Origin: Strigops habroptila
Lineage: Eukaryota > Chordata > Aves > Psittaciformes > Psittacidae
Reading direction: 5' to 3'
Assembly (NCBI RefSeq): GCF_004027225.2
Contig: NC_044284.2
Span: forward strand, 41,216,420-41,280,419
Length of the DNA stretch: 64,000 nt
Shown here: one piece after another, positions 9,261 through 30,200 of the stretch
How positions within the stretch are numbered: position 1 is the first letter of the stretch
Layout of the letters: every line of letters begins with the position of its first letter
Notes under the pieces: generated by a model
Told to the model about the DNA's origin: nothing
Database searches by the model: none
The model's input: only the letters and a program-made list of their open reading frames with translations
Made by a program: the position numbers and the translations under genes

Positions 9261-12200
9261 CCCATGGGAGGAGGCAGCGAGTGCAGGAGGAGCCAGCTGG
9301 GCAGCAGGGTGCTGGAGGGTGTCAGCTCCAGGGGTGCCGGCAAGGAAATACAGGCTTGGGAGGTAGTGTTTGTTGGTGACCCCGGCTTGTTGCACTCTCC
9401 CCCCCACCAGCTGTCAGCTGCTAGGTGGTAACAAGTCTTTTGCCTGGGCCGCTATTGCTGTGGTATGAGTTGTCTTCTGCTTGCTTTTGTTTCCCCGTTA
9501 GGGCAGACATGTCAAAGAAGGGACAGCTTATGGAGGTGCTGAAAAAGGAGGTGAGATCGCTGCTAATGGCTGCCAAGGAGGGCTTAACCCCAGCTCAGCT
9601 GGAGCATGAGTACATGGCCATGATTGGTAGACCTCTCCCTGTACGTGACCTGGGCTACCAGTCCACTTTGGAGCTGGTGGCAGATATGCCTGAAGTTGTC
9701 AGAATCTGTCCTTATGAGAAAGGCACTTTTATCCTCAAAGGTGAGGTTTTGTTTCCTTATGGGTGGAGGAATTATTTGGGATCACATAGTGGTATGAAGT
9801 GATGCTCCAAAATGGGGATGTGCAGGATGAAATCCTAGAGCTAGCTGTAGGTTATGTATCTGTGTATTATTTTTTTCTCATATAGGTCTGTTTAATTTAT
9901 TTTCTTTGATGTTTCTTCCTTTATTTTTCATCTGCATGTCAATGCTTGTCTGCTTTTTCCTCCTCAAAAAAATCACAGAGGCTTCAAGTTACTTTTGTGC
10001 ATTTTGCATTACGCATTTAGTTTAGAAACTGCAATAACATTTTTTATGGGTACACTAGAATGGGTAAGCTTCACTTTTCCTGTAAATGTAGAGTACAGCA
10101 GGAGCCAAAACCAGGGATGGGGCCTCTCGGGAGAAGCTATATATCTTTCCTTACCTGACCCCATGAGAAGTTTAGTCTATATCAAAGAATGTTTTTAATT
10201 TTCATTTCCTTTTTGTTTGGAAACAAATGGTAGGTGCAAATTGTTGATTGCTGTAGTAAGTACAGGGAGACCTTGCCTGGGCAAGCGGGTGTTCTGTAGT
10301 GAGGGTTTACTGTGATTCTGGCTGAGGGGAGCAATGAGCAGTTTACTGTTTTCCCAGCAAAACTCACAAGCAGCTGGATCTCCTGTTGTGATCCTTTATT
10401 AAGAATTTGACTGCCCTCCTACCTGGATCTGGATATATAGGGGTAAGGGTGCAGGTTGTTGTCTGTTAAAAGTGGTTAAGTCCAGTTTGTAAAGGGAGGG
10501 GAAAAGTGGTTTCCCTGCTGGCAGTCAGCCACAATTTAGTGTGGTTGGTTTTGAAGGAGACACCTGCTTCTGAAAAGGGTGGAGGGACAAGGAATGAAAG
10601 GAAAAAGAGGAGCTTTGCCTTTGTGGAGCTTTAAAGGATTTGCTGGTTTTGTAGTCTTATAGTTCATTTCTTTCTGTTGTAGCTATTGCAGATGAGACCA
10701 CCAAAGCAATTGCCAAACTGGTTGCCAGACAGAGGAGAAGTGCTAAGGAACGGAAGGGTGCTGCTGTGAGGGCAGATGCTATTTCTCCCCGTAAGAATCC
10801 ACAGAGTTTCCCTTGGAGGGGCAAGGCTGCCATCCTGCCAGCGGCGGTGAAGGCTGAGGTGCAGGATCTGCTGAGTTCCTCACCGCTTCTGCTGTTGGAC
10901 TTTCATAATGCCTTCTTCAGACGCTTTGGCCGGGCGTTTGAGTACACACAGTATGGATTTTTCTCCATGTTTGAAGTCCTGAGAAGTGTGTCTGATATCG
11001 TTGTGGTTGAGCAGACAAAAGCAGGTTCCTTGTTGACCCTGAAGAAGCATCTGGCAAGTGAGATAAAGAAGGAAGAGATGCCACAAGGTGAGGTATCGGA
11101 GGGGATGCTGCAAGGTGAGGCATGGGAAAAGATGCCACGAGGTGGGACGCAGGAAGAGATGCCACAAAGTGAGGGATGGGAAGAGATGCCACGAGGTGAG
11201 ACACAGGAAGAGATGCTGCAAGGTGAGGTGGAGCCAAGCAGCTGTGTTTCAAGCGGGTGTTGCTGCGTTTCCAGTTGCTGTAGTCCTGGTTCCCCTAGGT
11301 TTTAGCACAGAAGGACTGTGGGGTGCTGCAGAGGCAGCTGTCACAAGGGAGTTGTTTTGGTAGCAGAGAGCTTAAGTGGAAGTCTTCTATAGATTACCAC
11401 TCTTTTTTGGTGTGAGGCGAAAGAAGAGATGTTTAGCTCATTCAGACTACGGACTTTCTGAATGTGTGTGTAGGACTGGAATTTCTAGTAATTCCAGGCA
11501 ACAGATAACAAAAATAGAAGGATCTCCTGAACGTCTGCTCTGCAGGCTGATAAAGCCTTTCCAACGCACTTTTTGAGACTGAAGGTTTAGGATAAGTGTG
11601 AAAGGCACAGCTACAATGTTCCACAAAAGAGAAGAGACTGCAGATGTCTTCAGCATTCCCATAACAGCTACGAGAGAATGCAGAAAATCACATATAGTTC
11701 CTGCCAGATTCTCAACTATTCTCTCTGTCCATCATTCTAGCAAGTGATTTAACCCTTAATATGCTTACATGAGTAAATGTGTTTAGTTTTCTTTTGATGT
11801 ATTAGTACAGTGAAGGATGCCTCTCAAGTGAATACTCATGACTGGTGGCTGTGAATGCTACCAGAGATGAGGCAAACAGCACCAGTGCTTTCAGACTTTT
11901 CATTTGTCTTCTCTTTCTAGTTAATCTGGAACACTGCATCAGTCCAACAAAGAATAACAGCCAAATTATTGTCTTTGCAGCAGCACCTGCAGTTGAGATG
12001 CCTCCTTTGGAACCCATCTGTGAAACAGAGAGCTGCTACTTGACAGCAGAAGAGAAGTCAGAGCCAGTGGAAACACAAGCAGTAGATTTAGGTGATGGCC
12101 TCAAACAAGTAAGTGGCTGGACAAGCGATCTGTAGCTCTTTCATGTCTTAATCCAAGGAGTGATACTCTTCTTTTACTGCTCTTGTTTCTATTGAGTTTG

Positions 12201-15200: not shown

Positions 15201-18200
15201 TGCAGCAGGGAAACATCTGATAAACTGCAGGATATGATGGTTGAGATGAGGTGCGAACATGCTATCCTGATTCAGTACTACTACACGTGTGTGTGTGTTT
15301 CTGCTGAGGGAACATGGCACCCAGCTGTTGGTTATGGTCACTGCTGGCTTAATTACTTAATACAGAAATGCCAGTGCTGTACTGAAACAGGTACTCGTAA
15401 TGCCTACCCATTCCTTTTAACTTGCAAGCAATAAATATGGTTAATAGCAATTCATGGTATTTTGGCTGTGTCCTAGACAGTCCTAAACTTTAAAAGCCTG
15501 GAAAGGAACGTTAAGGTTCCTTTGCACCTCTCTATTGTCTGTGCTACTGTGGTTAATGTGCTCAGTTAAGGCTTTTACTTCCATCTCCAACACTTATCAA
15601 AAAGCAACAAGTAATAGGCCTTTGTCTGACCTATATTTGAAAGCAAAATCCTGTCACTGCATTTGTATCAGCTACATTATGCATTTAGAATTCTAATTCA
15701 CCACAGTGATGCTACAACTGCTGTTAATTGTGTGCCAAAGTAAACGCTTGATGTCTGTGGTGCATATGTAAGTGCGATTACAGAATCTGCAGACATACTG
15801 CATGTGTGAGCCAGTATACCAGGACCTGGTTCACAGGAAGCACTGGCATGTCAAGGTGATGTTAAACATTAATGACTAGAATAATTGTATGTAGCCTCTG
15901 ATTAATCCTCATTAATTAACTTTTTATTGGACCCCAAGAATATAATTCAAATGTTAAAAGTTTGGGTTTGCATTTTATATTGCCATTTCAGTTTGAGTGT
16001 GGTAGAACTGAGATGGAAATGATCTATTAAAACAAGTCCTGAAAATTCATGTCATGAAGACTTTGAGAAATCTGGATTCTTCTGAAGCCCTGTATATTTC
16101 CCTGTATTCATCTCCTGCATCCTAGTAAGCACGGTTTCTCATTATGATCTTTTGCAGACACTGTTACTCAAATAAACTTGTTTCTGATCGTTATATCATG
16201 CCTGAGTCTTCAGTACAGCCTGGACAGCTTTGCTGTGTAACAATCTCTAAATGGTGGTACCGCGTTATCATCCACCGTGTGATCAATGACAAAGATGTAG
16301 AGGTGTTCTACCCAGATTACGGAAACCTCGAAATTGTCCGAAAGTCTTGGCTGAGATTCCTCAAGTAAGTAAATCATAGAATGATCCAGGATTACAGGAG
16401 GTCATCCTGTCCAACCTCCCCACTCAAGCAGGGCCATCTAGAGCAGGCTGTCCAGAATCATGTTGAGATGGTTTTTACTTGCAGATTTGCTGAGGGTAGA
16501 CTTGCCCCATCATCCAGATCATTAATGAAGATGTTGAACAGTATTGGACCCAGTAATGACCCCTAGGGTACACTGCTAGTTCCTGGCCTCCAACTAGACT
16601 TGTACCATTGATTACCACTCTCTGAGCCTGGCTCTTCAGCCAGTTCTCAGCCTACCTCACTGTCTGCTCATCCAGAGCAGACATCTGCTTGGATGAGCAT
16701 TAGCTCATCGATACTTCATCAGTTTCTCTATGAGTATCTTACAGGACACAGTGTCAAAAGCCTGATAGAAATCCAGGTAAACAATACCCGCTTCTCTTCC
16801 CCCACCTATCAAGCCAGTCATTTCATCACAGAAGGTTGTCAGGTTGGTTAAACATGACTTCTCCTTGGTGAATCCATGCTGGCCACTCCCAGTCACCTTG
16901 TCCTTCATGTGCCTGGAAATGGTTCCCAGGATTAGTTGTTCCGCTGCCTTCCCAGGTATTGAGGTGAAGCTGACAGGCCTGTCTTTCTTCAGAAAGACAT
17001 CCCAGCATGTGGATTGCCTAGAAAAAATCTGGGCTTTTATTCCATAATTGTGTCTTGGAGGCATTTCCTTGCTTACATGCTAATGCTTGCCGTGACATTG
17101 TTTAAGACCTATTTTTCTGATCACTCCACGTCTTTTGCTCGTCAGCCATGTCCGTCACTCCCTCACTCTGACTTTGGGCTAAGTCCTTTCCTGTTTCTGC
17201 CTTCATTCCTCAATCTTTCCTCTTGCTGCTTTCTGTTACTTTGGGGCAAGCTCCCTAATCTTCCTTCCTGGGTTCCATGGATGGATGTGAACATCCTTCT
17301 GAACGGACATCAGTTGAAGTGGGACACATTTGCAGTGTTAGAGGTACTTGTTCTCCTCTGCAATTCAGTACCTTTTCCCTATTTCCTCCTTCCCTCTCAT
17401 TTGCTTCAATTTGTGCCTGGCCACAGGCATTCTTTGGTTCAAAAATCATTGCTCTCTGTCCATAACTTGGTAATCATAAGGGGGTTTGATGTGAAGATGC
17501 TCGGGCAAGGGAAGGCATAAGGGACCAATCGTTACTGCTGTTTTTGCTGTGCCCGTTCTCTGGATATGGAGCGTTTTCCAAAACTGCTGCCAGGCTTTAG
17601 TCGTAAGTACAAACTCCAGTATGTGCCTCTCTATTCCTAAGCTGATTTTAAAACTCAGAAGAGGAGGAAGTTCTATTCTTCTGCCTAGTTTTGCTCTGTC
17701 TTTGATGTAGTGGTGATGGCTTTGTTTTGTATTGTAGGTGGTGCTTCTTGAAGCTTCCTGCTCAGGCCATCCCATGTTCCTTGGCATGGGTAAAACCCAT
17801 GGAGGTATGTCTTCACAGGCAGTTTTATTTCTGGACTTATATGTATGAGAGCTGTCAAGTAGAGGTTGCCTTCAAGTAGAGGGCGAGCATGTGGATTAAT
17901 TCAGCTCCTGTTGATGTTTACAGCAGAATTGCTGCTGTCAAGTTCAGCAGAGTATGACTGCATAAGTGTGTCTCTCTCTCTGCCTTCCTCTGTCTGTTTT
18001 CTTAATGATCAGAATATTCTTGCTTATATTGTTGCAGAAACAGATAGCTACTGCTAAGCTGGTGGTGAGGCCCTGGCACAGGTTGCCCAGAGAAGTTGTG
18101 ACTGCCTCATCCCTGGAAGTGTTCAAGTCCAGATTGGATGGGACTTTGAGCACACTGGTCTAGTGAAGGTGTCCCTTGCCTGTGTCAGGGGATTGGAACT

Positions 18201-21200
18201 AGATGAGCTTTAAGGTCCCTTTCAGTCCAAGCCATTCTGTGATTCTATGAAACTTGTTTCTTTCCCTGCCAGTAATTCTCCAGGGTCCTTCTGAAGCCTT
18301 GATAGCTCCAGTCCGCTGTTTTAAAAATTTCTTCTCTGACAGAGCTTTAAGTGAATTGGTTTGATGCAATCAGCATACCCAAAGAATTATAGAGGTCATA
18401 AAAAAGTTCCTCTGTTCTGGGAAGCCTTGGTCAAGAAGCCTGAGAAATTAAATCTCTGAAGGAAAGCTTCTGTCTTTTAAAGACATTATTTTTTTAAAGT
18501 TATTTCCTCTGGATTTTTTGAGGGTTAAAGAATCACAATTTTCATTGCAGAGAGGTTTAGCAGCCTCTTGAAAACTTACCCCACTTTTAACATTTATAAT
18601 CACAGGTTCCCAGGAATATTAAAAAAAACCAACCAAACAAACAAAAAAAAACCCCTGCAAAACCTAAAAAACTATTTTAGGCAATTGTGATAAAATCACT
18701 GGCCATCAAACCACGTTTGGAAATAGGTATTAGAGTGAAAGGGCATACCCAGTGTAACTAGCACTGCAGGCTTTGGGGTAGTTTGTTGTAGTTCAGTGCT
18801 GGGAAGCTTGTCTGCTTGCCTTTCCTGTATTTGTCCCTAGCCTGACCTAGCTTAATCGCCTTTTTGACAAGTGCCTTCAAGGGAAAGCCTCAGGCGGTGG
18901 ACATTGGTCTGTTTATAGTAACTTTACATTCTTGTTTCTTCTTTAGGATACGTGGTCCAATGCAGCAACTCTCCTGTTCAAGAACCTGTGTAGTTCCAAG
19001 CTACTTGTGGGCATTGTGGATGAATATGTCAATGGTGTTTTGCATCTTTTCCTGTGTGACACATCCACTAAGGAGGATGTCTACTTCCACTGTGTCTTGA
19101 AGGATAAAGGATATGCTGACATCTGCGGAGAGAACATTCCTTCTGAGGTCAGGAGGGAGGCATGTGCTGCTGAAAGGCACCCAACCAAACAAAAACGTCA
19201 GTTGGGTGCCTGTAATGGGAAGATCTTTAGCTTGAAGCAAGTAATTTTTTGAAGAGAAAACTGGTATTCCCTGCTTTCGTGTAACTTAACATTTTGTGAC
19301 TGCATCCCATGGTGTCAAACTCTATGGTGAGAGCTTGCTTTTTGGTTGAGGTGGCATCTGATGGTACAGCAGTGATGTTCTGGTTTAGTAGAACTAATTA
19401 TTTTCACCCTGTCTTCTAACAGTGAATTAGAAGGTTCTGATTTTTTTTTTTTTTTTTTTTAAGTTGATTAGCTTGTTAGGATTGCAGATTCATCTGGAGC
19501 TGACACTTCTCGTGTTAGTAAATGGAAAAGTAAAATAGCTGTAAATGTTCTGTGCATAAGGCCAGTCTGAGATGGAATTAAGAGGTTGTTAAGAGATACG
19601 TTAGTTACTTCACTACCCCTTGTTAATTCTAGCCAGTTTGGTTAGTCATAAGTTGAGGCCACTGATTCATCCAAACAATCAGTCAGAGCACGTTGATTAG
19701 ATTTTATTGTCTAATTTAAAGTAGTGCTACACAGTGGCAGGGGCAGTTGAGTGAGGAACAAGATAGTTAAATTATTTCGGCCTTCTCTGCTGTAGGCCCT
19801 GAAGATTGGTTTTGACATTAATAAGCTGAATTATGGAAATGGTCTTGGTTTAAAAAGTCTCTTACTTTGCCAGTGAAATGTACAATGTTGGACAGTGTAA
19901 CCACGTAGATTGCACATTGTCCCTTGGACCAACACGTTGTAAGCCAGTGTGAGAGCATTTATGATTTGGGCCCATCTGTGTCGTCATCTGAATCTCTCAG
20001 CTCAGTTTCAGTAAGAACTGTGTAGATATGAAAATCTTTAGAAAGGTAATGCCACGATTTTATATCTCAGCAGAAAGTCAGGCTTTACAGTCTGCTGTGC
20101 TTCTATCCATTGTTTCAATCAATAGATAAAGAATGTGTGTTTTGGCGGGATTACTATGATTGTATTTTTACATATGTATGTCCAATTTTGGGTGGAGGGG
20201 ACCACTGCTGAGTAATTTTGTTGCTCGAGAGAGGGAAGCTGATTTTTGTAGGAAGAGGAAGACAGTTTCTGCAAGGATTTGGAGCTAACTTGTGGGTTGT
20301 GTGCTTCTTAAAACCTATTAGAAACTTGACGAATCCTTTTTATTCTTTGTAGTAGTTACAAAATGTTTTTCTTGACTATACTGTTTTTTCTTTGTTTGTT
20401 TGTTCCTAGGGATTCAAGGAACTGAATCCTTTGGCCTTGTATGTTCAGCCCAGTGAGAAGTGGGAGAATGCTGAACTGGTGGAACCAGACCTTTGCTTGC
20501 AGCAGGAGTCTCTAGATGCAGATAGTGCAACAGCAACCTCAAAACTGGGTGGGGATGAACTGTGTGATCAGGTGGGAGTTTGGCTACGGCGTAGCTATCA
20601 TTCAATAAAATCAGCTCCAGGGATCAGTAGACATTGTACTAAACCATATGTATTGGTTTAGTTCCATGCAGTTTTTTGTGGAGTTGGTGTTTTGCTTTTA
20701 TAAAAAGCAAGCAGAACCATAATATAAAAACAATTACACATGGACCATAAATACATCTCTAGCTGCTTGTCCTCTGATCCTTTTGCAGACTTCAGGGAGT
20801 CTGTGTGCTTAGTGATTTCACCAACCTCCCATATGCACCATATTTTTCAGTTAGAGGTGGAATGAAGTCTGAGAACTCAAACCAGTACCAGATTCTTGAG
20901 ATCAGTTTGACTTAGCACTTTCATGTTTTGCATCCATGGGAGCCAAGAAGTGGTGTCTTCTTTTCCTCTCACATCTCTGGGGTTTGGCAAAGTATGTGTG
21001 ATAACTTGGGGTGCCGTTTAAGTATGGAAAAAGACCATAAGAACTAGTGGTGTATTATTTGCATTAAGGGTCTTGCTCATTCCAAACTTACTTGAAAGGA
21101 AGCAATTTGCAATCCTGGTTGTTGCAGGAGGTAAGGTCATATACAACTACAGTTTTATTAAAAAGATAACTCTAACGCTGAATGATCTCTAGATCTGGGT

Positions 21201-24200
21201 GCTACTTTACACCTTTTATTTCAGAGCATGTTAAAAGAGGAGCCCTTTGCTATTTAACAGATGGAGAAACTGGTGAACAGAGGGCTTAAGCAGGGAGTAA
21301 AACCCAGGTCTTGAGTGCAATCTAATGTAGTACTGCTAGAAACACCAGGAACACTTGGCTACAGGTGGCTCTCTCTACTTTTCTGTGTTATTTAAATTGT
21401 AGTATTTTCATGACACATTTTGCTGTGGGGGCCAAAGCACCTTTAAGTAAATGTCAGCTGTTGAAGGGTTCAGCAGTGGGCCTGCTCCAGGGCTGTTTTC
21501 TGACATTTCTCCGAAATAAGAGTAAAAGCTAGTGTAATGTTAGTAACTTGTAAAGCAGTCATTTAACTAGGCTTTGTTTTAGCCAACTGTGTTTCTGTGC
21601 TAGAGAAACTCAATGAAAGCTATGTATCTTAGATATTAATGGCCTTGCACAGTTGCTGTATTGTCTGAACTGAAGGACACAAACCAGTGTCATATGTATG
21701 TATTTGCAAGAAATTAACATGACATAGACTGCACATCTGAGTTCATTGTGTTGGGGGAGGGGGTGTTAATAGAAAAATATGAGGAGTACCCTAACTAGTT
21801 AACTGTAGCAAGATCCATTTATGTAAATGTCAGACATAGCTGGTGATTTGGAGACTAGAGGAATGTAAATGCATTCAGGTGGTTCTGTCATGTATGATTT
21901 CAAGGGTCTTATTAGAATCCTTTTCCAGAAATTGCAGTCCTCTAGATCTCCCTTTGTGTAAGACCTTAAACATTTCCTTCTCTGCTGTTCTGTTTAGCTC
22001 TGCAAAATGTTTCCTTTTCTTCCTTGGTGCATCACTAACATGATCATCAGTGGCAGTTATAAAATAGTTCAAAATGTTTTGAGCTGGAATGAAATGTGTC
22101 TAATATGACACTTGTTAACTGCTTAGCTAGCATTTTCTGGTAACTCCTCTTAAGCTATGGGAAACTCCCTTTGCATTGTCTGATTTTAAATTTGCCTCAT
22201 CAGGATTAACAACTTTCTTTTTTACCTCCCACCTTCCTTAAGTGCAAAATGTCTGGACACTGTGTTGTATCAGCTCTGTTATATTGGGACACTTCTCCAT
22301 GGTAAAATTCTCCATGGTGAAAAAAAGCAATAACCAGAAAGCATTGCTTGAATAAAACTGTACTTTTCAAGTGATAAGTTTTACTGTGCAGAAGAAAAGT
22401 TAAAGTGAGAGTTAATTCCTTGTTCACGTAACTTCTTGTCCTTCCATGTTATTTCTGCCCATTAGAAGTAGCCCAAGCTCTCCACATAGAAATGTTAAAA
22501 CTTCTGAGTAAAACAGATAAGCTCCGTTGCGTTTCTCTCTCAGTTAAATTTTAGTGGTATCATCTGATTGCTCTGTAATTTGCTCCAGTGCATCCAGCTT
22601 TCTTCTACCCACACTAGCCATACCTTTTCTTGCTTTGTCCCTCTCCTTAGCAATGGCACCTGTCTGACAAGGACGAGACACAGGATGATGTGCAGCCATT
22701 TTTGGATAAAGTGACTGTCCCAGGAACAACAGACCAAGACACTGAACTTGCACAGGAGGATACAGGTGAAACTTCTACAGATCCTGTGGCAGTGGTTAAG
22801 GTAAGGGCGTTTTTCTCAGCTATTGCTGTTGAGAGGGGGTTGTTCTTGGTTTTAGATTATTTGAATAACCCTTTGATTGCATTAACATGTATTTTTTTTT
22901 AAGTGACTGGCAAAGAAATTTTGACTGGCTGTTAGCATGGACTCAGAGCTATACGTTTTCTTCTTTGCTGTTGTTTCAGGTGTTATTGATGATGCACCAG
23001 TGCTCCACTGGCACATCAAGGTGTTGTGGAAACAAGACTGTTTCAGCACTTTATAGATCAAACCTGGCCCTTCTTCATTGCTCTACTTCCCATCCATTCA
23101 CAGTCTTGGAGGTTTTTGGGAGTAACTGGGAGTTACTGTGGGGCTGCATCACACAGGTCTACTTATGAGTTAGGAGGGCGGGTTTGGGAAGATTGCAGTT
23201 TGGGCTGTGCTTTGAGGCATTGCGTAGCGCTGGTGTTGCTGCTTAAGTGGTGGTTAATGATGAATCTAATAGGGCTTGCAGCGTGATGTTTTGCAGAGTG
23301 TTCTGTGCTGTAGGTTCAGCAGGGAGCCAGTATCACTCAGGATTTGTTGAGCTGCAGAAGGCATTGCAGAGCTGCAAATGGGAATGTGCCTACATGGTTT
23401 TGGATAACCACAGCTCCTTACACATCTATAGGTTGATAGTGGCTGAGACAAAAATCTTTCTAAAAGGATGAGTGGGAGAGTCAGTTCTCTCAGTTCTCAG
23501 TTGGTTCTCTCAGTCTAGGGCAGAGCTGGAACAATCAGTGTCTCAGGGATGTTATCTGAAAGGGATGGAAAGAAAGCAAGCTGGGAAACATAGAAACATA
23601 GAAACAGAATCGTAAGGGTTGGAAAGGACCTTAAGATCATCTAGTTCCAACCCCCCTGCCAGGGGCAGGGACACCTTGCCTTAAACCACGTGGTTCAAGG
23701 CTCTGTCCAGCCTGGCCTTGAACACCGCCAGGGATGGAGCATCCACAACCTCCCTGGGCAACCCATTCCAGTGCTTCACCACCCTCACTGTAAAGAACTT
23801 CTTCCTTATATCTAGTCTAAACTTCCCCTGTTTAAGTTTGGACCCATTACCCCTTGTCCTACCACTACAGTCCCTAAGGAAGAGTCCCTCCCCAGCATCC
23901 TTATAGACCCCCTTCAGATACTGGAAGGCTGCTATGAGGTCACCACGCAGCCTTCTCTTCTCCAGGCTGAACAGCCCCAACTCTCTCAGCCTGTCTTCAT
24001 ACGGGAGGTGCTCCAGCCCTCTTATCATCCTCGTGGCCCTCCTCTGGACTCGCTCCAACAGCTCCATGTCCTTTTTATGTTGAGGACACCAGAACTGTAC
24101 ACAGTACTCCAAGTGAGGTCTGACGAGAGCAGAGTAGAGGGGCAGGATCACCTCCTTCGACCTGCTGGTCACGCTTCTTTTGATGCAGCCCAGGATACGG

Positions 24201-27200
24201 TTGGCTTTCTGGGCTGCAAGTGCACACTGCCGGCTCATGTTAAGCTTCTCGTCAACCAACACCCCCAAGTCCTTTTCTGCAGGGCTGCTCTGAATCTCTT
24301 CTCTGCCCAGCCTGTAGCAGTGCCTGGGATTGCCCCGACCCAGGTGTAGGACCTTACACTTGGCTTGGTTAAACTTCATAAGGCTGGCATCGGCCCACCT
24401 CTCAAGCATGTCAAGGTCCCTCTGGATGGCATCCCTTCCCTCCAGCGTATCAACCGAACCACACAGCTTGGTGTCGTCAGCAAACTTGCTGAGGGCGCAC
24501 TCAATCCCACTGTCCATGTCGCCGACAAAGATGTTGAACAGGACCGGTCCCAACACCGATCCCTGAGGGACACCACTCGTTACAGGTTTCCAACTGGACA
24601 TCGAGCCATTTACCACAACTCTTTGTGTGCGGCCATCGAGCCAGTTTTTTATCCACCGAGTGGTCCATCTATCAAATTGATGTCTCTCCAATTTAGAGAC
24701 AAGGATGTCGTGCGGGACAGTGTCGAACGCTTTGCACAAGTCCAGGTAGATGGCGTCAACTGCTCTGCCACTGTCCATCAGTTCCGTGGCTCCATCATAG
24801 AAGGCCACCAAATTGGTCAGGCAGGATTTCCCCTTAGTGAAGCCATGTTGGCTGTCACCAACCACCTCGTTGTTTTTCATGTGCCTTAGCATGTTTTCCA
24901 GGAGAAACTGTTCCAAGATTTTGCCAGGCACAGAGGTGAGACTGACTGGTCTGTAGTTCCCCGGGTCTTCCACCTTCCCCTTCTTGAAAATGGGGGTTAT
25001 ATTACCCTTCTTCCAGTCATCGGGAGCTTCACCTGACTGCCAGGATTTTTCGAATATGATGGACAGTGGCTTAGCAACTTCATTCGCCAGCTCCTTCAGG
25101 ACCCGTGGATGGATTTCATCAGGTCCCATGGACTTGTGCACGTTCAGGTTCTTAAGATGGTCTCGAACCTGATCCTCTCCTGCAGTGGGCCTAAGGTCTT
25201 CGTTCTCACAGTCCCTGCATTTGCTTTTCAAGACTTGGGTTGTGTGGTCAGAGCATTTGCTGGTGAAGACTGAGGCAAAGAAGTCATTAAGAACCTCAGC
25301 CTTCTCCAAATCCATGGTAGCCAGTTCTCCTGATAGCTTCTGGAGAGGGCCTGCATTGTCCCTAGCCTGTCTTTTATTTGCTACGTATCTATAGAATCCT
25401 TTCCTGTTATCTTTTACATCCCTTGCCAAACTTAATTCTAGCTGGGCCTAACCCGGTCCCTAGCTTCTCGGGCAATGCTCCTATATTCTTCTCAGGCCGC
25501 CTGTCCTCGCTTCCACCTTCTATAAGCTTCTTTTTTCCCCTCTAAGTTTCCTCAGCAGCTCCTTGTCCATCCATGGAGGTCTCCTGGCCCTCCTGCTGCA
25601 CTTTCTTCTAGTCGGGATGCAACACTCTTGAGCACGTAGCAGGTGATCCTTGAATACCGACCAGCAGTCTTGGGCCCCCCTGCCCTCTAGGACTGTATCC
25701 CATGAAACTTTACTAAGGAGGTTCCTGAAGAGGCCAAAGTCTGCTTTCTTGAAGTCCAGGGCAGTGAGCTTGCTGCACGCTCTTCTCACTGTCCTGAGGA
25801 TCTCAAACTCAACCATCTTGTGATCACTAGAGCCAAGGCTGCCCTGGAGCGTTACATTTCCAACCAGTCCCTCCCTGTTGGTGAGCACAAGATCCAGCAT
25901 GGCACCTCTCCTCGTCGGCTCCTCTACTGCTTGAAAGAGGAAGTTGTCTTCCACACAATCGAGGAACCTCCTGGATTGCTTGTGCCAGGCTGTACCGTCC
26001 CTCCAACAGATGTCAGGATAGTTGAAGTCCCCCATGAGGACCAGGGCCTGCGAGCGTGAGGCTGCTCCTATCTGTCTGTAGAGCGCTTCATCCACAGAGT
26101 CCTCTTGATCAGGCAGCCTGTAACAGATCCCCACCGTAATGTCCCCCGTTGCTGTTTTCCCTTTGATCCTGACCCACAAACACTCTGTTACCTCATCACC
26201 CGTCCCCAGACAGAGTTCCATACTCTCTAGCCTATCACTGACATAGATAGCAACACCCCCTCCCCGTCTGCCTGGCCTGTCTTTTCTAAACAGCCTGTAA
26301 CCTTCCATTCCGACATTCCAGTCATAGGAGCCATCCCACCATGTTTCTGTGATACCAATGACATCATATTCCCGTAGCCTTGCACACATCTCTAATTCCT
26401 CTTGTTTGTTCCCCATACTACGGGCGTTTGTATAGAGGCACCTTAGCCGAGCTCCAAATGGAGCCGACTCAATGGCTGGGGCAGCTGGAACATCTCTACA
26501 TCGCTCCAAGCACTTATTACAGGTGCTGGCAACTGACCAGGAATGTTGGGATGGATCAATGCTCCCCTCCCCCAACACATCTAGTTTAAAGCTTTCCTGA
26601 CCAGCCTGGCAAGCCTCCTACCAAAACAGCTCTTCCCCTTCTTTGTCAGACCAGCTCCACCAGCCTCCAGTAGATCTGGCCTCCCAAATGGAGCCCCATG
26701 TTCTAAATAGCCAAACCCCTGACTATGGCACCAGCATTCTAACCATTTATTAACCTGCCAAACACGCCTAGCTTTTTTAAGGTCCACCCCTTTGCCCTGG
26801 AGAATCGATGAAAAAACTATCTGAGCTCCAGAGCCCCTAACCACCTCTCCCAGGGCTCTGTAGTCCTTCTTAATGTTTTCCAGGCTACTGCTATCTATAT
26901 CTCTAGCACCCACATGGACTACTAAGAGGGGGTAATAGTCAGCAGGACTTACTAGAGCAGGCAGCCTCTCAGCAACATCCCTGATCCGAGCCCCTGGCAG
27001 GCAACACACCTCCCTCGAGACTGGATCAGGCCGGCAGATGAGCGCCTCTGTGCCTTTCAAAGTGGAGTCCCCTACTACTATGACCCTCCTCTTTTTCCTG
27101 GAGGCACCAGTAGCGATCCTCTTTACTGGTGCATCAGCAGGATGCTCATTAGGTGTGGTGGGTGCTTTCTCATTAGCCCCCTGCAGAACCGCGAAGCAGT

Positions 27201-30200
27201 TCTGGGTGGGGACATCAGATTTAGGAGGAAGCCCCTTGTCGTTAATTGTGCTCTTCCTCCTTTTTTTGTTTGTTTTTCTCGTGACTAATTCCCAGCTTCC
27301 TGGGTTGCTGCCCTCTTTCTTTCCTATATGAGCAGTGCTAGACGTTTGCAGCCCCTGTGCAGTTTGGGCCTGGAGCAAGCAGCCCAGCTTCCTCTCAGCT
27401 TCCCTGGCATCTTTTAGCTCACCAACAGCCCCCCGCAGCTCAGCCACCTGCTGCAGGAGTGCCTCCACCAGGGCGCACCGAGTGCAGCCCTGTCCATTGT
27501 GCACCCTCGCCTCAAGAGACCAGTCGAGGCACTTTCTACACTCTGAGGTCTGCGCCGCAGCCTCCCCTCTCATCGGCTCTGTCTTTGGGGCAGAGCTCCC
27601 AAAGCGGGCCCTGGTCCTGAGGCGAGTGCTCACCTGCCTGCTCGCCCTGCCTGCGCCAACTGCCGCGCCACGCCCTGTTTGCCCGCCCTGGTCGCTCGCG
27701 CTCCCTGGGATGGGTTTTTACCCACTGAGGGCTGGTGCCGTCACTCCTGGCGCCGCCCCCTGTGAGTCAGCTGCTCGCGTCAGCTGAGCTGCCGGCTCAT
27801 GGGCAAGTCCTGTCGAGGACTTAAGGCTCCCTCAAGGAAGAGGGACCCTTGGGAGTGAGAGAAGAGGAAATCTTCTGGTAGCATGTGCAGGGCTAAATTA
27901 AAATGAGATGGAGGCAGATGGGTAGGTAGCAATAGGGTCCTTGTAAGCTAACTTAAATGCTCCCCTGCAAGTATTAAACTGAGTTTCAAAGCATAGGATC
28001 TTTCTAACTGGAATAGAGAGGTCCTGGGGACGTTTTCTGTCCCTGGCTGTGATCTCTGTTACAGTCTTTAGAAGAAGTGACAAGAATTTCTATTGAGGAA
28101 AGACACTGGGATGAAAAAATAATCCCACCTGTAGGCATTAGGGGGAGTGAAATGCACCAGTCAGCTGGTTATGAGGATAGATGGGAGGACTTTGTTTCTC
28201 TGATTCCTGCTCATCTCTTGGTCTTAGGGTTTTGTGGCAGCATCACCAAGTGGCATTCCCTCCTTTTCAGTTTTCACTGCTCATGTTTTCCTTTTCAATG
28301 GTAGTGTTCTCAATTGTGCAATTCAGGAGGAAGAGTAGATACTGCCTTGCTTCCTGCCCCTCGCAGCACTCTAGGGTATCTTGTCTGGTTTGCCTCTTCT
28401 GTAAACTGAACAGCCTCCTGTTTTAATTATTTCCATCCCAGCTTTTTCCAATGCTAACAGATGTTTTTAGTGTCCACCCTTACACCCTGTCTGTTTCTGC
28501 TTTGTCCTAGAGTGGCAGTGACACTGCCTGCACTGCAACAAGGATAGCATGGGTAGCAAGAGGAGACAACAATTATCTTTTAACCTTGTTCTTTCTCTTG
28601 TTCTAACACTCATATTTTTTGCCGCATGTTAGGCAGAGGTTTTCAATGGGCTGAAGGTATCATGCTGAGTCGTTGGTTAATTTAGTCAGCACTAAATTTC
28701 TGCTGCCCAGCTGTTGTAGGTCTCCTAGATACTTCAGGAGTACCTCATGGTCCCCTTGTGGGGGACAATTTAAATTGTTTAAATCTGCTTGTGTAAAACA
28801 ATTGTGGTGTTCTGGGCTAATCCTCTTAATGCATTCTCACCAATGGGTGAAGCACCTCTGGATGCTGATCCACCCCTTCTGAAGGTGGATGCCTTTCTTC
28901 TGGTGCCTTGACAACAGAAGAACCCTGGACAGCAAGCACCTTAGTTTTGAACAGCTGTGGTTGGGCAAGGTGAATTGCTTCTTGTCTGTGGTTTCACTAC
29001 TTTTCTCCTCTATACTGAGTTAACAAATACAAACATTGCCTCAAGTCGCTATCTAGGGCTGAGACATGTGTGATGATCCCTGAAACTTAAATATAATTTG
29101 CATTCTAAGCAAAAATGCAGAGGGACTTCCTCTGACTCAGCTCCCACTCCGTTGCAGAAACTCCCTCTCTCATTGCCATCATTTGTTCTGTGTGGGGCTG
29201 CTGATAGATGAACCAGCTGTTAATTCCTTGCTAAGACATGATGATTTGTATCTTGTAATAATCTGTCACTCTTCAGCTGTGTAGGAAAACCTTCTGGCCA
29301 AGGTTGTGAGGAGCTAGGGGTCTTTGTTGGGGTGTGGGGTTTTGGGGTTTGTTTATTTGTTTTGTTTTTCAAATCATCCACTTGCTGACATTCCAGTTCT
29401 TCGCGGACTTTGAGAGATAATAAAGATTAGAGCAGCTAATGAACCAAGCATGCACTAATCACACCCTCTCCTGAGTTTTTTTATATACATTTGCAGACAC
29501 CTCATTGTCTTGAAGAGTCCTCAAAGCCTGCTGTCCTATTCAAGTCAGTGGAAGACTCTTACACCTCCTATATGTACTCCAAGGAACCAGGAGGAATGAG
29601 CCAAGATAAGCCTGATCAGATAGAAAGATTTTCCAACAATCTCCAACTTCGTGAAGCTGTACATCCTTCTGTTCTGCTTATGGCAATACCGTTTATGGAC
29701 AACCATAACAGTACGAATAGATTTGTCAGTTAAGGTTAACATGGCAGAAAGCCAAGCAGTCTGTTACTGTGCTGTGAGTCTTGCAGTCACTATTGGGTGT
29801 CTTAGGACTGGTGCTGCTGCTTTGCTAGATGAAAATGTTGGTCTTTCCATGGGATGGAGAGGCAACAGTGATAAATGGCTGGGTGCAATGCATCGGTTTG
29901 ACCTTTGTGCAGCTAAATGGATTCCTAAATGTCTAATGGGAACAAATGTATTGAGGTTTATTTCTCCCTCTGTTGATTTTTGTCTTTTTTAGACTTTCTG
30001 CTGCTTTCATGCAGAAGTCTTTCTTTCTCCACTTCATACATGAGCCTATTTGTTTCATACCAAGAGCCTCTCAATCTCTCAACTGTAAGGGACAAAAGCT
30101 TTTTTTTTTTTAAACCTTATAAGGTCCCTGCCTGGGTGTTCGTTTTCCATCTTCCAAATGATGAAGAAATTTACAACACCCATATGAGAGTTGCCTGTTT

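Follow-up and report, generated by a model that had tools for sequence, protein, structure and literature searches.

The window, the whole stretch of 64,000 nucleotides from Strigops habroptila that we analyzed, carries a near-complete CR1 LINE on its minus strand, at roughly 27.8 to 23.6 kb. ORF1 of this element is homologous to the SGNH-type ORF1 proteins of amniotes, as in the esterase-type CR1 clade: its closest relative in a protein similarity search was a Strigops habroptila protein (94% identity), and a Pelodiscus protein was 46% identical. Searched against Pfam, ORF1 gave no match at 1e-3. Also as in that clade, ORF2 encodes an APE-type endonuclease and then a reverse transcriptase (Table 1); in the window copy it is broken between 25520 and 25447. 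Elsewhere in the window, older CR1 fragments with 68-76% identity to the main element were found at 16528-16982 and 18061-18240, and a tandem array with 27-bp spacing at 11070-11252.

Table 1. Features of the CR1 element, in window positions
Feature	Position	Strand	Basis or remark
CR1 ORF1	26581..27573	-	330 aa from ATG at 27573; SGNH-esterase type by homology
Predicted U_UUA_AAC -1 shift site (TTTAAAC), last codons of ORF1	26584..26590	-	Sequence and copy conservation
TAG stop of ORF1, adjoining the shift site	26581..26583	-	TAG in 9/10 diverged copies
AUG adjoining the ORF1 stop	26578..26580	-	ORF1 frame, not ORF2
G-rich tract GGGGGAGGGG, 10-nt spacer after the site	26564..26573	-	Candidate conserved stimulator; encodes GEG in ORF2
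TGTTGGG/CCCAACA hairpin, 20-nt loop	26544..26577	-	Present; no more stable than shuffles
ORF2 frame, first part	25520..26617	-	Endonuclease, Exo_endo_phos PF03372, E 4e-16
ORF2, second part	23681..25447	-	Reverse transcriptase, RVT_1 PF00078, E 1.5e-34

Reading frames at the ORF1/ORF2 junction

All junction features of the window CR1 lie on the minus strand. ORF1 ends in AAA GCT TTA AAC TAG (GCT to TAG, 26592-26581), and ORF2, whose frame is -1 to that of ORF1, runs across the same bases as AGC TTT AAA CTA GAT GTG TTG GGG GAG GGG; this frame starts 27 nt upstream of the shift site and is closed further upstream by a TAG at 26620-26618. The first-pass annotation had described a slippery T TTA AAC ending exactly at the ORF1 stop, a one-base slip back into the ORF2 frame (CTA GAT GTG TTG), and an AUG adjoining the stop in the wrong frame for ORF2, all of which we confirmed. 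The junction thus has the layout of a -1 frameshift signal, with an XXXYYYZ heptamer in the 0 frame at the stop and ORF2 in the -1 frame. It does not have that of UAAUG-type coupling, the AUG at the stop sitting in the ORF1 frame in the window CR1 family and opening onto MCWGRG..., not ORF2. The first Met codon in the ORF2 frame is at 26416, after the endonuclease motif stretch beginning at 26446; since this Met comes after the motif, a start there would lose the motif, whose Asn we take to be the metal-binding Asn of APE-type endonucleases.

Could the heptamer, and with it the hairpin that follows, be there by chance? TTTAAAC is at chance frequency in the window (8 seen, 6.1 expected) and the hairpin is insignificant (see below), both of which speak for such a reading; the position, frame and conservation of the heptamer speak against it. 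The TTTAAAC at the end of ORF1 is the sole in-frame XXXYYYZ in its 330 codons. It uses TTA, the Leu codon that this element employs least (5.8% of Leu), and GCT TTA AAC has P = 0.013 given the peptide ALN and the codon use of the element, a value that refers to a single element before subfamily comparison. We rejected a chance heptamer on codon choice together with the copy conservation and column shuffles described below, and a chance origin of heptamer and hairpin together, strongly disfavoured by the subfamily comparison, deserves hardly any credence.

The heptamer in other copies and other species

We looked at junctions of the same genome with several queries. The window junction returned 1496 candidate places, and the 40 that were scored were all 99-100% identical. 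Among 60 loci from the junction and penguin-ORF1 queries, young-family junctions were located by their flanks, excluding the heptamer, which was kept in 50 of 50, a count that is uninformative because the copies are too young. The penguin ORF1 protein query gave 118 matches, the best 30 of which were taken as loci, and GCTTTAAAC stood at the ORF1 end in all 30. These loci include 10 diverged copies (L031-L039 and L041), 10 of 10 with GCTTTAAAC, which amount to at most nine independent junctions since L035 and L036 show the same one; the count is separate from 40 junctions of an L032 query and from two diverged partial matches to the penguin ORF1. The one diverged copy without TAG, L033, has lost the stop and kept the heptamer.

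We also aligned nine rows, namely the window and eight diverged copies (L034 and L036 left out), with a mean column identity of 75%. The longest invariant run of this subfamily alignment was GCTTTAAAC, at 9 nt, and within the heptamer about 14 mismatches were expected and 0 seen. Runs of at least 9 nt arose in 5 of 100,000 column shuffles, although such P values are optimistic, because the rows are related and were picked by a pattern containing CTTTAAAC; the count obtained without that pattern, 10 of 10 diverged copies, is therefore the fair one. Within birds the site is conserved beyond coding need, and in other amniotes conservation is seen as the ALN peptide only.

Two further observations were made on copies in this genome. 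The best 40 places matched by the L032 junction had 84-100% identity, and 24 of them lay on contig C25, where pairs of equal-score matches on opposite strands near 12.81/12.91, 24.64/24.70 and 35.29/35.33 Mb suggest large inverted duplications, perhaps of the W chromosome. At another locus, L061 (G000:C4:37186700-37190400), a single 1056-aa open frame leads from ORF1 through to the ORF2 C-terminus. We rejected it as a natural ORF1-ORF2 fusion: its coding strand has no TTTAAAC, and since it is apparently an in-frame internal deletion, it is no evidence for or against frameshifting.

The comparison across species rests on proteins rather than on junction DNA. Among 56 ORF1 relatives, 34 end exactly in ALN, 2 in ELN, 1 in TLN and 19 otherwise, many of the last looking partial or chimeric; ostrich proteins occur in both sets (P0022 ends in ALN, P0007 is one of the 19). 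The ALN-ending set comprises proteins from birds, turtles and squamates, metagenome proteins, one labelled as frog and one labelled as Klebsiella. A CR1 ORF1 protein deposited as Klebsiella pneumoniae (P0005, on a 2,932-base contig) is probably vertebrate contamination.

On the ORF2 side, 32 of the 176 proteins collected have FKL in the ORF2 frame with GEG, or a close variant of it, coming next; they are mostly from one stork genome (Mycteria 28, Grus 2, Theristicus 1, Anas 1), the ORF2 protein search contributing the best 120 of 168 matches; five ORF2 proteins with GEG and without FKL, which look like gene-model splices, were left out. Since TTTAAAY is the only sequence compatible with both ALN* and, one base back, FKL, and since FKLD or FKLG requires the stop to be TAG, these proteins imply TTTAAAY TAG at the stork, crane, ibis and duck junctions, with C or T as the last base, provided that ORF1 of these copies terminates in ALN*. 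A protein search with the duck N-terminus matched only its own query, and a scan of viral contigs and genome contigs for relatives confirmed none.

Alignment of the ORF1 proteins showed the L and N of ALN to be nearly invariant, as would be expected if the ALN tail, lying where the esterase fold ends, were kept as protein and ORF2 were expressed differently, for instance through splicing, internal entry or a transcript of its own. Such an account leaves unexplained why all 10 diverged copies use a single codon set and why four bird genera have FKL in the other frame, and we regard it as very improbable.

Sequence downstream of the shift site

The 7-bp hairpin that the first-pass annotation had read as the stimulator is present with its 20-nt loop (arm TGTTGGG 26577-26571, loop 26570-26551, arm CCCAACA 26550-26544), but it did not stand out against shuffled sequence: fold stability at the window junction gave z of -0.75, -0.70 and -0.21 for 45, 60 and 80 nt. 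An RNAalifold consensus of eight rows (L034, L036 and L038 excluded; MAFFT gaps fall inside the window's stem region) reached -2.08 kcal/mol and did not contain it. The 7-bp stem was seen in the window CR1 family only, other copies having different and mostly weak stems; L037 is an exception with z of -3.4 at 45 nt, yet -1.0 at 60 nt. By shuffles and consensus fold, then, no conserved stimulatory stem was found 5-9 nt downstream of the heptamer, and the hairpin has no support as a general stimulator. Some known -1 frameshift signals lack such a structure, according to PMC5009743.

In most copies read, a 10-nt spacer separates the heptamer from a tract resembling GGGGGARGGGG, the exceptions being L039 with a shorter run, L038 with a deletion and L033 with a changed tract. 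This G-rich tract, which also encodes GEG in ORF2, may act as the stimulator.

Routes into ORF2 and known systems

We tabulated the frames of 48 young copies, L052 and L057 having been dropped by a G-run filter. The first ORF2-frame Met lay in NARSM in 40 of them and later in 1; a stop preceded any such Met in 6, and in L046 a Met occurred at codon 5 of the FKL reading. Several young copies had both frames open over the stretch read. Among the diverged copies, L032 and L041 had no Met before the endonuclease motif, L037 and L033 had one at codon 5, and six others had one in between. An ORF2-frame AUG within about 9 nt past the stop position was present in L037 (FKLDMMGEG), L033 and the duck protein P0073 (FKLGLMGEG). 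The earlier claim that ORF2 has no AUG before its endonuclease motif thus applies to the window CR1 family and fails for these three. In turtles, the annotated ORF2 proteins begin at a Met that precedes the motif by 22 to 26 aa, so this group may differ.

These AUGs and the turtle Met starts mean that reinitiation may act in some lineages. Applied to the junction in general, ribosomes would stop at UAG, a fraction would restart some bases later at an ORF2-frame AUG or near-cognate codon (GUG or UUG), as in other two-ORF LINEs, and the heptamer would merely encode a needed ALN tail. GUG and UUG are indeed there in the window CR1 family, and ORF2 of SART1 is reportedly coupled by UAAUG. However, the ORF2-frame AUG just past the stop is missing from most copies read, the AUG of UAGAUG is in the wrong frame, the fixed synonymous sites of GCU UUA AAC would not be needed, and L033 has the heptamer without the stop. 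We therefore consider termination and reinitiation an unlikely explanation, if a more serious one than a protein-conserved tail.

A conserved -1 shift site at the CR1 ORF1/ORF2 junction is, as far as sequence comparison goes, well supported. We think it probable (roughly 0.74) that the window CR1 expresses ORF2 as a minor fusion with ORF1 through -1 programmed ribosomal frameshifting; from the earlier version of this reading, the site, the frame relation and the missing ORF2 AUG stand for this family, and the hairpin as a standard stimulator does not. Ribosomes at the end of ORF1 would have tRNAs on UUA and AAC, which in a fraction of ribosomes would re-pair on UUU AAA; UAG would then not be a codon, and reading would continue CUA GAU... 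into the endonuclease-RT frame, giving a fusion product ...ALN-LDVLGEG..., while the majority would terminate and yield the ORF1 protein. According to PMC5009743, few heptamers shift more readily on mammalian ribosomes than U_UUA_AAC. From sequence we infer the slip and how often it occurs, as well as the fusion protein and a stimulator, be it the G-rich tract or a subfamily-specific stem.

More tentatively, and at somewhat less than even odds, the U_UUA_AAC -1 shift may be the ancestral ORF2 route of amniote esterase-type CR1, with the G-rich tract after a 10-nt spacer as its stimulator and no standard stem; it would then have been retained for more than 250 million years. If so, the ORF2 enzyme would carry an esterase-ORF1 N-terminus at a set ratio, and the tract might act through a bound factor or through base pairing peculiar to each lineage.

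In birds, crocodilians and turtles, CR1 is the predominant LINE. How ORF2 is translated in two-ORF LINEs is a long-standing question, and the conserved shift site makes the CR1 case directly testable, predicting an ORF1-ORF2 fusion protein in a LINE with Gag-Pol-like logic. We found no report of frameshifting in CR1 in the open-access literature, a scope outside which the original CR1 papers lie, and to our knowledge the window CR1 would be the first non-LTR retrotransposon of a vertebrate with a canonical -1 signal of the U_UUA_AAC type. Among viruses, arteriviruses have a U_UUA_AAC site for -1 frameshifting, and retroviral gag-pol is likewise expressed through a -1 shift. The accessible text of PMC5009743, which does not mention CR1, covers the U_UUA_AAC frameshift site of the coronavirus IBV, -1 frameshifting in PEG10 and unconventional initiation of L1 ORF2.

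With the CR1 LINEs bearing an esterase ORF1, classified as type IV in PMC4120745, the window CR1 has the ORF1/endonuclease/reverse transcriptase order and homology in common; no difference was found, the predicted shift site being an added feature. The coronavirus and arterivirus sites have the same heptamer and frame geometry and likewise connect a first product to the polymerase frame, whereas the window element is a LINE, has its stop directly after the heptamer and showed no conserved stem. Retroviral gag-pol and PEG10 offer a -1 shift from a first ORF into a second frame in a retroelement or its derivative, as we propose for CR1, which differs in being non-LTR and in having an esterase-type ORF1 rather than Gag. 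SART1 and L1, like CR1, are two-ORF LINEs that need ORF2 to be expressed downstream of ORF1; what is conserved in CR1, by contrast, is a slippery site, the AUG next to the stop lying in a frame other than that of ORF2.
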